Part shown: positions 51 through 38,169 of the stretch, one piece after another | Layout of the letters: each line of letters starts with the position of its first letter | Position numbering within the stretch: position 1 is the stretch's first letter | Assembly (NCBI RefSeq): GCF_001742305.1 | Contig: NZ_MJAT01000001.1 | Coordinates: 186,001 to 250,000 of the forward strand | DNA: 64,000 nucleotides | Source of the DNA: Desulfuribacillus stibiiarsenatis | Lineage (GTDB): Bacteria > Bacillota > Bacilli > Desulfuribacillales > Desulfuribacillaceae | Direction of reading: 5' to 3' | The notes under the pieces: generated by a model | What the model was told of the DNA's origin: nothing | The model's input: only the letters and a program-made list of their open reading frames with translations | Databases searched by the model: none | Made by a program: the position numbers and the translations under genes

Positions 51-403
51 GGGGGCGTTTTGGATTCGACGGGGATAGTTCGAGCATGAGCTGCGAGTAG
101 GGGACCGTGCCCTCTTTAACAACATGGAAGCCAACAATAATTGGCAAACAAGAATTCGCTTTAGCTGCTTAATATAAAGTAGCTGCCTCACCACTCCATC
201 GCCTGTGTGGCGTGAATGGGGCTCATAAATGCAGGCTAGTCATAGGGCATGCCGATGGTTCTGTGGCGAAACTTCATCGGATAGTCTAGAAGAATCCTGT
301 CGTTGGGATACCTTTTAGGCGAATAACGAAATGACGACTACACTCGTAGACGCTGATGTGGCGATATCTTCGGACACGGGTTCGATTCCCGTCGCCTCCA
401 CCA
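51..403 (+). ncRNA. ssrA: tmRNA (transfer-messenger RNA)
   Basis: This RNA rescues stalled ribosomes by acting as an alanyl-tRNA and then as a short mRNA that adds a degradation tag. The 5' end (GGGGGCG, 51-57) can pair with CGCCTCC near the 3' end, followed by ACCA at 400-403. The 5' region carries the family hallmark GGATTCGACGGGG, and the T-arm reads GGGTTCGATTCCCG. The internal tag frame ends in Ala-Leu-Ala-Ala. The length of about 350 nt is normal. The 3' end is duplicated downstream at 8366 and 10556, so this gene is an integration target. I did not model the pseudoknots. Confidence 0.97.
143..172 (+). other. tmRNA tag-peptide reading frame
   Basis: Reading from GGC at 143 gives Gly-Lys-Gln-Glu-Phe-Ala-Leu-Ala-Ala and then TAA. 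With the alanine charged on the tmRNA the tag would be A-GKQEFALAA. It starts GK and ends ALAA as in Bacillus-type tags. Tags ending in ALAA are delivered to ClpXP-type proteases. The resume codon is inferred from family similarity. Confidence 0.85.
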
Positions 404-22279: not shown

Positions 22280-22563
22280 ATGCTTGAGTGCAATGGTTCG
22301 GTACTCGTGAACGCATTAATCTTTGGTGGTTTCCATTTAGTTAAGAATTTCGATAGGGAAGCTTTTATTAATAAAATTGAAGAACTAGAATCAACAGTGT
22401 ATACATCACGGTTGATAGACGCAGTCATTGCTGCGGATTTAGAGCGCAAGTGAATACGATGATAGAATCTGATGAAAATCTAGACTTTCAGGATTCGAAC
22501 GGATGGACTTCTACACCACTTATGCTTGCAATTAAGCAAGGAAATAGAGACGTTGAATTATAA
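22280..22563 (+). pseudogene. ankyrin-repeat protein remnant
   Basis: Two short frames in different phases. The first (22280-22453, 57 codons) is a helical stretch. The second (22459-22563) encodes 'NLDFQDSNGWT', an extra 'ST' and 'PLMLAIKQGNRDVEL', which is an ankyrin repeat apart from the two inserted residues. The frame switch and early stop indicate decay. The ankyrin reading is by eye from one repeat, and the link to the first frame is inferred from adjacency. Confidence 0.45.
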
Positions 22564-22671
22564 GAACCTATAAATAACGTTTTGCAGATTGTAGATATTG
22601 TGGCATAAATAGATAAACAGGCAGGTTGTAAAATAATACTGCTTGTCTGTGTTTATCTAGGTTAAAAATAC

Positions 22672-22700
22672 TTGCATAAAAGTAAATTGCGTGGTATATT
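22672..22700 (+). promoter_or_regulatory. promoter of the 22.7-kb RNA candidate
   Basis: TTGCAT (22672-22677), a 17-base spacer and TATATT (22695-22700) fit a sigma-A promoter. Start would be near 22707. Confidence 0.55.
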
Positions 22701-22706
22701 CTAAGT

Positions 22707-23100
22707 AGTAAGAAGAACATCACATTTTAAGAGGCTCAACCATTCTATTCGGTGTTATTTTAAGTAAAATAGCTACGTTTAGAACAAAATTTACAAGTTT
22801 ACCTATTTATGTTAGTAAAGTTAGTGGTTTGTTAACTTTAGTAAGTGTTTAGTATTTAGGTTAGTTGATTAAATTTATTGGTTGAGTATCGAAAGAGCTT
22901 TGGTTAATTGTTTTGTAATACGATGCAGTTAGTTCTAGATTCAAGTTGGTGTTTTCTGAATTCGGTAAAAGCTTAGTAAGATTATCTGGATTTGAAAGTG
23001 GTTTACAGATTTATGAACCAAGCACCGATGGTTGAGCCTCTTAAGATGTGATCGGGAAAAGGTGTTAATTGTTGACGAAAGTTAACGATTAACACCTTTT
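22707..23100 (+). ncRNA. candidate structured non-coding RNA closed by a long end-to-end stem
   Basis: No gene is found from 22564 to 23227. Positions 22721-22743 pair with 23028-23050 (23 bp, one G.U). After a 6-base bulge, 22750-22754 pairs with 23023-23027. The 268 bases inside are poor in C and contain repeated TTAGTAA-like strings. A promoter precedes it by about 20 bases and a strong terminator (23057-23100) follows directly, so it forms its own transcription unit of about 390 nt. I do not recognise it as tmRNA, RNase P, SRP RNA, 6S or OLE. An alternative is a 330-bp inverted-repeat (MITE-like) element, but no clear target duplication is seen. Confidence 0.55.
23057..23100 (+). terminator. 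terminator of the RNA candidate
   Basis: AAAAGGTGTTAAT (23057-23069) pairs with ATTAACACCTTTT (23088-23100), extended by an inner GTT/AAC stem. Confidence 0.85.
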
Positions 23101-38079: not shown

Positions 38080-38107
38080 AAATAAGGGTAGTGAAACTAA
38101 CTCTAAC

Positions 38108-38169
38108 GGGAGAGCGCTTGGCTGGCAGCCAAGAGGTCAGGGGTTCGAGCCCCCTAGGCTCTACCAAAT
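38108..38169 (+). repeat. right direct repeat (attR) of the tRNA-Ala island
   Basis: A 62-base copy of the 3' part of tRNA-Ala(GGC) with one mismatch in the acceptor stem. It lacks the 5' acceptor strand and so is not a tRNA gene. It ends the 2.3-kb island. Confidence 0.92.

Follow-up and report, generated by a model that had tools for sequence, protein, structure and literature searches.

A stem-closed structured RNA of Desulfuribacillus stibiiarsenatis, very probably a member of a new lineage-restricted noncoding RNA family

The window analyzed here is a 64,000-nucleotide stretch of the Desulfuribacillus stibiiarsenatis genome with a G+C content of 37%. On its forward strand, a candidate promoter, two complementary 25-nucleotide arms separated by 284 nt, and a terminator-like hairpin follow one another (Table 1). 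The arms, AUCACAUUUUAAGAGGCUCAACCAU and AUGGUUGAGCCUCUUAAGAUGUGAU, form an end-to-end closing helix, P1, of 24 Watson-Crick pairs and one U·G pair, and the whole is very probably a genuine noncoding RNA gene. An earlier note on this DNA had described a 28-bp closing stem. The 25 bp of P1 are certain and exceed the 23 bp claimed for its main part, while the proposed continuation, which pairs 22750–22754 with 23023–23027, has a competitor described below. Upstream of the RNA, a short open stretch at 22459–22563, MIESDENLDFQDSNGWTSTPLMLAIKQGNRDVEL, resembles an ankyrin-repeat remnant, which suggests a decayed gene; the imperfect inverted repeat between this stretch and the promoter may terminate the unit that lies upstream. 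Farther along the window, positions 38098–38155 match the tRNA model in part and with a borderline score (29 bits, model positions 8–63); ARAGORN does not report this site, which is possibly a tRNA remnant.

Table 1 Features of the RNA gene and its surroundings (window positions) and loci of the B copies
Feature	Position	Strand	Remarks
Imperfect inverted repeat, TAGATAAACAGGCAG...CTGCTTGTCTGTGTTTATCTA	22610–22659	+	Read from the sequence; not listed by the terminator scan
Candidate promoter	22672–22700	+	-35 TTGCAT 22672–22677, 17-nt spacer, extended -10 TGg-TATATT 22692–22700
P1 5' arm, AUCACAUUUUAAGAGGCUCAACCAU	22719–22743	+	Inverted repeat; compensatory changes over four copies
Local 5' hairpin	22754–22773	+	22754–22761 with 22766–22773; mean pair probability 0.93
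Internal domain	22801–22861	+	Closed by ACCUA/UAGGU, 22801–22805 with 22857–22861; mean pair probability 0.90
Hairpin of UUAGUAA-like strings, inside the internal domain	22812–22824 with 22832–22844	+	Mean pair probability 0.86
Mimic of P1 3' arm, UUGGUUGAG	22878–22886	+	Candidate folding placeholder; could bind the 5' arm while the 3' arm is still untranscribed
P3 5' strand, UUGGUGUU	22946–22953	+	Pairs with 23021–23028, AGCACCGA; mean pair probability 0.73
P3 3' strand	23021–23027	+	Overlaps AAGC motif; alternative partner of 22750–22754
P1 3' arm, AUGGUUGAGCCUCUUAAGAUGUGAU	23028–23052	+	Inverted repeat; compensatory changes over four copies
Candidate intrinsic terminator	23057–23100	+	Inverted repeat, 20-nt arms, GAAA loop, then TTTT
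B copies of the RNA	L045:1496–1837 and L061:1493–1866		

The sole DNA-search match to the element in the window's genome (G000; 3,117,468 bases in 39 contigs) is the element itself. In related genomes, where the earlier note had suggested looking, the DNA search revealed an orthologue, G001a, in a second genome of the same bacterial family, G001 (E = 2e-22, 69% identity); the match covers both P1 arms, which are identical in the two sequences. With a mismatch pattern for the arm, each genome yielded one more copy: G000b, which is highly diverged, in the window's genome, and G001b in the other. We refer to the window element and G001a as the A copies and to G000b and G001b as the B copies, so that all comparisons below draw on four copies in two genomes, one A and one B in each. 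The RNA measures 323–374 nt over the four copies. The interiors are greatly diverged and hardly alignable between A and B, and the A orthologues share identical blocks such as GTTAACTTTAGTAAG. Short open reading frames compared over the four copies have no counterpart between orthologues and no shared frame, and a coding reading is rejected.

The A and B loci each lie in orthologous neighborhoods across two genera. The genes immediately flanking the A RNA differ between the two genomes, and farther downstream both share a block encoding a DUF438-like hemerythrin/PAS protein, a metal-binding lipoprotein, an ABC permease, an ATPase, and an MntR-like regulator, names that we assigned by reading the sequences. 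Both B copies lie downstream of genes for a two-CBS-domain protein and a release-factor-like protein and adjoin, on their other side, a conserved DEAD-box helicase gene and a conserved ABC-F gene. No gene neighbor common to the A and B loci was identified. Vertical inheritance of one A and one B gene per genome most simply explains this sequence-level arrangement. A non-coding core between long terminal inverted repeats is also the architecture of a MITE, and the earlier note had named as its main alternative such a non-autonomous mobile element, whose 25-bp terminal repeats would fold by default. The copy search that it proposed gave a single diverged paralogue in the window's genome instead of many near-identical copies, and no target duplication is seen at the window copy. 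In none of the four copies do the repeats enclose the promoter or the terminator, and both copies occupy orthologous positions in two genera. With only one diverged paralogue and both copies at conserved loci, the mobile-element explanation is largely refuted, and we regard it as extremely improbable.

The window promoter has a weak -35 hexamer and an extended -10 element that ends 18 nt before the closing helix, which would place the transcription start near 22707. By eye, a sigma-A-like -35/-10 pair with a 17-nt spacer occurs in each of the four copies and ends 18–27 nt upstream of the helix (TTGCAT/TATATT in the window, and TTGATA/TACACT, TTGTAA/TATACT, and TTGTTA/TATAAT in the others). The candidate terminator starts 4 nt after the helix, has arms that are 90% complementary, and is followed by only four T residues; a hairpin followed by T residues is also found by eye at the equivalent site of the other three copies. 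Consensus scans list neither window signal: the hairpin is missed because only four T residues follow it, and promoter-like sites are common by chance in A+T-rich DNA. The weight of both signals, therefore, comes from their recurrence in the relatives. Thus, the promoter and the independent terminator proposed in the earlier note stand as recurrent signals identified by eye, not as scan-supported sites. The order of promoter, RNA, and terminator is identical in all four copies.

A four-copy alignment of P1 has 99 of its 100 cells paired. Two-sided compensatory changes, for which the earlier note had recommended looking, are present at 5 of the 25 pairs (A-U/C-G, A-U/U-A, U-A/C-G, A-U/G-C, and G-C/A-U). 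In 500 shuffles, neither the observed percentage paired nor the count of two-sided changes nor the covariation score is ever reached. Slid controls are 30–44% paired. The inner nine pairs, CUCAACCAU/AUGGUUGAG, are invariant in the four copies and constitute the one long sequence common to A and B. From these inner bases, pairing extends outward by 15–16 bp in the four family members, versus 0–2 bp in 21 contigs chosen solely for having the inner 9+9 bases at similar spacing (20 of them viral, one from a genome of the phylum). This comparative evidence demonstrates, at the level of the alignment, that the closing helix is selected. Matched changes of this kind would by themselves fit RNA or DNA equally, and both strands of the element can fold, so the arms could instead act at the DNA level, as a cruciform or as paired binding sites, with the matched changes arising when one arm is copied into the other. 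We consider this very improbable: the transcription-unit layout and orientation around all four copies are identical, the RNA strand of the window copy folds far better than its complement, all four RNA strands are C-poor, and the U·G pair of P1 is kept in both A copies.

The forward strand of 22672–23100 folds with an energy of -130 kcal/mol (z = -9.3; none of 100 shuffles reaches so low an energy) versus -86.5 kcal/mol for the antisense strand, and the z-scores of the four copies are -9.3, -11.1, -8.4, and -7.4. Without the closing helix, the window interior has a z-score of about -1.1, not significant against shuffles, so much of the excess stability of the window fold stems from P1 and the terminator hairpin; the corresponding interior value in G001a is -5.6. 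The C-poor interior described in the earlier note is borne out, with 8.8% C in the window copy and 7.7–12.3% C versus 20.5–24.3% G over the four RNA strands. The TTAGTAA strings that the same note had reported do occur in the window interior, three times; they are mostly arms of a predicted internal hairpin, largely paired with each other. Folding of G001a predicts an equivalent of the local 5' hairpin as well as of the ACCUA/UAGGU domain (0.87) and the UUAGUAA-like hairpin (0.97). The interior helices draw on folding energy and few compensatory pairs; with two-sided changes so scarce there, the interior model is provisional. With only four sequences, covariation support resides mainly in the closing helix.

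A second predicted helix, P3, closes the 3' domain. Its equivalent in G001a has a mean pair probability of 0.96, a likely counterpart in G001b, UACAUCAG/CUGGUGUG, reaches 0.97, and the AAGC motif at its 3' strand is present in all four copies. P3 competes with the 22750–22754/23023–23027 extension of P1 because of the near-copies UUCGGUG and UUGGUG: UCGGUGUU (22749–22756) and the P3 5' strand vie for one 3' strand, and both are retained in G001a. The consensus fold of a MAFFT alignment favors the extension, whereas single-sequence ensembles favor P3. Keeping two near-copies in both A sequences could reflect alternative structures of the modeled RNA.

A further candidate for conformational exchange lies in the middle of the RNA, where all four copies have bases resembling UGGUUGAG that, in truncated transcripts, can bind the 5' arm. 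In truncated window transcripts, UUGGUUGAG is predicted to pair with the 5' arm at a probability of 0.98, and likewise in G001a. The match is perfect in the A copies, with probabilities of 0.90–0.98 once the mimic is transcribed, and it is weaker in the B copies, with one mismatch. This internal mimic of the 3' arm could serve as a folding placeholder for the 5' arm. Since 25 of 500 and 20 of 500 shuffles rival its duplex energy in the A copies, a borderline result, and the energies in the B copies are ordinary, the idea of a 5'-arm switch is a lead only.

The window element has no match in Rfam 15 at gathering score, and its best matches at a permissive threshold have E-values of about 1 and are eukaryotic models; the remaining three loci yield nothing up to E = 1. 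In size and rod-like outline, the RNA recalls 6S or large SRP RNA and might be a strongly diverged housekeeping RNA (6S, RNase P, SRP, OLE, or tmRNA), a reading with hardly any probability left. The 6S gene (RF00013, 70.9 bits) is found elsewhere in the window's genome, the RNase P (RF00011, 272 bits) and OLE genes (RF01071, E = 6e-148 and 1e-153) elsewhere in both genomes, and the tmRNA at window positions 51–403. With true genes and strong scores elsewhere, the 6S, RNase P, OLE, and tmRNA identities are refuted; bacterial SRP models match none of the four loci, and none of the copies fits an Rfam family. The impression recorded in the earlier note that the RNA is unlike the common large bacterial RNAs is upheld. 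The full-length OLE RNAs map to G000:C12:103652–104280 (L087) and G001:C1:376314–376942 (L086).

Searches beyond the two genomes returned no relative. Among 398 genomes from the class and 398 from the phylum, arm-pair patterns identified paired arms in this bacterial family and, outside it, one chance pair; in viral contigs, they picked up only chance pairs with 0–2 bp of extension. Scanning GTDB genomes for exact 18-mers produced three hits, all unpaired. These arm searches depend on the CUCAACCAU core, and the paired pattern on a 270–300-nt gap, so that they address relatives with this same helix and would miss those with another. No phage or plasmid sequence matches the RNA, and an origin from either is rejected. 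A 45-nt DNA-search match in one further genome, G044, is probably due to chance. Two genomes of a single genus each have two copies of an arm-like sequence, GTTTAAGAGGCTCAGCCAT, which is not a paired arm; the copies point the same way and lie 382 bases apart (L034/L043, G218:C8:107794–108194; L035/L044, G333:C1:87221–87621). Among the matches listed, no paper mentioning Desulfuribacillus deals with its RNAs by title. Because the copies share one layout and a covarying helix, match no Rfam model, and have no relatives in the class, phylum, viral, and GTDB searches, we conclude from sequence comparison that they very probably constitute a new, lineage-restricted family of structured noncoding RNAs, known from four copies. 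The undescribed class tentatively put forward in the earlier note finds its backing in the orthologues of both copies, the covariation of the helix, and the lack of an Rfam 15 match.

Several known RNAs resemble the stem-closed RNA in part. 6S RNA, which has two paralogues in Bacillus subtilis, is likewise rod-like and closed by a terminal helix, but is smaller, at about 190 nt, and contains a central bubble; RF00013 does not match here. Y RNAs are about 100 nt long, and their two ends form a long terminal stem with a conserved stretch that docks the Ro protein. The end-to-end stem of our RNA also carries a conserved stretch, but neither genome encodes a TROVE-domain Ro protein (no match to PF05731), and a Ro/Y RNA identity is rejected. 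In rRNA precursors, a long helix joins both ends and is an RNase III substrate. P1 likewise joins both ends, but its inner sequence does not vary from one paralogue to the other, a constancy that plain RNase III processing would not call for. Bacteria have few known classes of large structured noncoding RNA, and the best known of these, OLE, ROOL, and GOLLD, are without a settled biochemical function. OLE is a large structured noncoding RNA of Gram-positive extremophiles and anaerobes that is part of a ribonucleoprotein (PMC9723947, PMC12265935). Like our RNA, it is large and structured and is carried by both genomes, but it is about 600 nt long, occupies a separate locus, and its model, RF01071, does not match this RNA. 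ROOL and GOLLD are large ornate noncoding RNAs without known function, encoded by discrete genes that phages and prophages carry, frequently close to tRNA genes; they range from 659 nt for one ROOL to over 800 nt and form homo-oligomeric cages (PMC12286853). They differ from the stem-closed RNA in their larger size and phage-borne nature; the latter matches no model and lacks phage or plasmid relatives.

We propose that the RNA core, 22719–23052, would be transcribed from its own promoter and that its internal domains would fold first, after which the 3' arm would pair with the 5' arm to yield a sealed rod. The 25-bp closing helix may hide both ends from exonucleases, and RNase III possibly trims P1, much as it does the stalks of rRNA precursors. 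Its invariant half, CUCAACCAU/AUGGUUGAG, would most likely dock a protein partner common to A and B, and the differing interiors may provide the two paralogues with different clients or regulation. As one whole explanation, an independently transcribed, stem-closed RNA with end sealing and partner docking has, in our estimate, a probability of roughly 0.7. Its chief rival, which we judge unlikely, is that these are trans-acting regulatory sRNAs in which the helix serves stability only and the single-stranded, C-poor interior pairs with mRNAs. The candidate promoter and terminator of its own, the C-poor interior, the two paralogues with different interiors, and the identical blocks of the A orthologues, such as GTTAACTTTAGTAAG, all suit an sRNA; the RNA, however, exceeds most sRNAs in size, its best-conserved blocks fall within predicted helices, and the closing helix, its most conserved sequence, cannot seed pairing.

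Within the proposal of a sealed, partner-docking RNA, a role as the trans-acting scaffold of a ribonucleoprotein is a tentative suggestion, well short of even odds. A bolder and rather doubtful extension would see here an undescribed class of large RNA in OLE-carrying anaerobes, a second large RNP type in which the shared helix docks a common protein and the mimic holds the 5' arm until transcription ends. Since both genomes also carry OLE, their large structured noncoding RNAs are of at least two kinds. A small, vertically inherited, and duplicated family makes a clean comparative system in which a shared helix can be set against differing interiors. Because the closing helix is common to both paralogues, it could be assayed as a protein-docking module.
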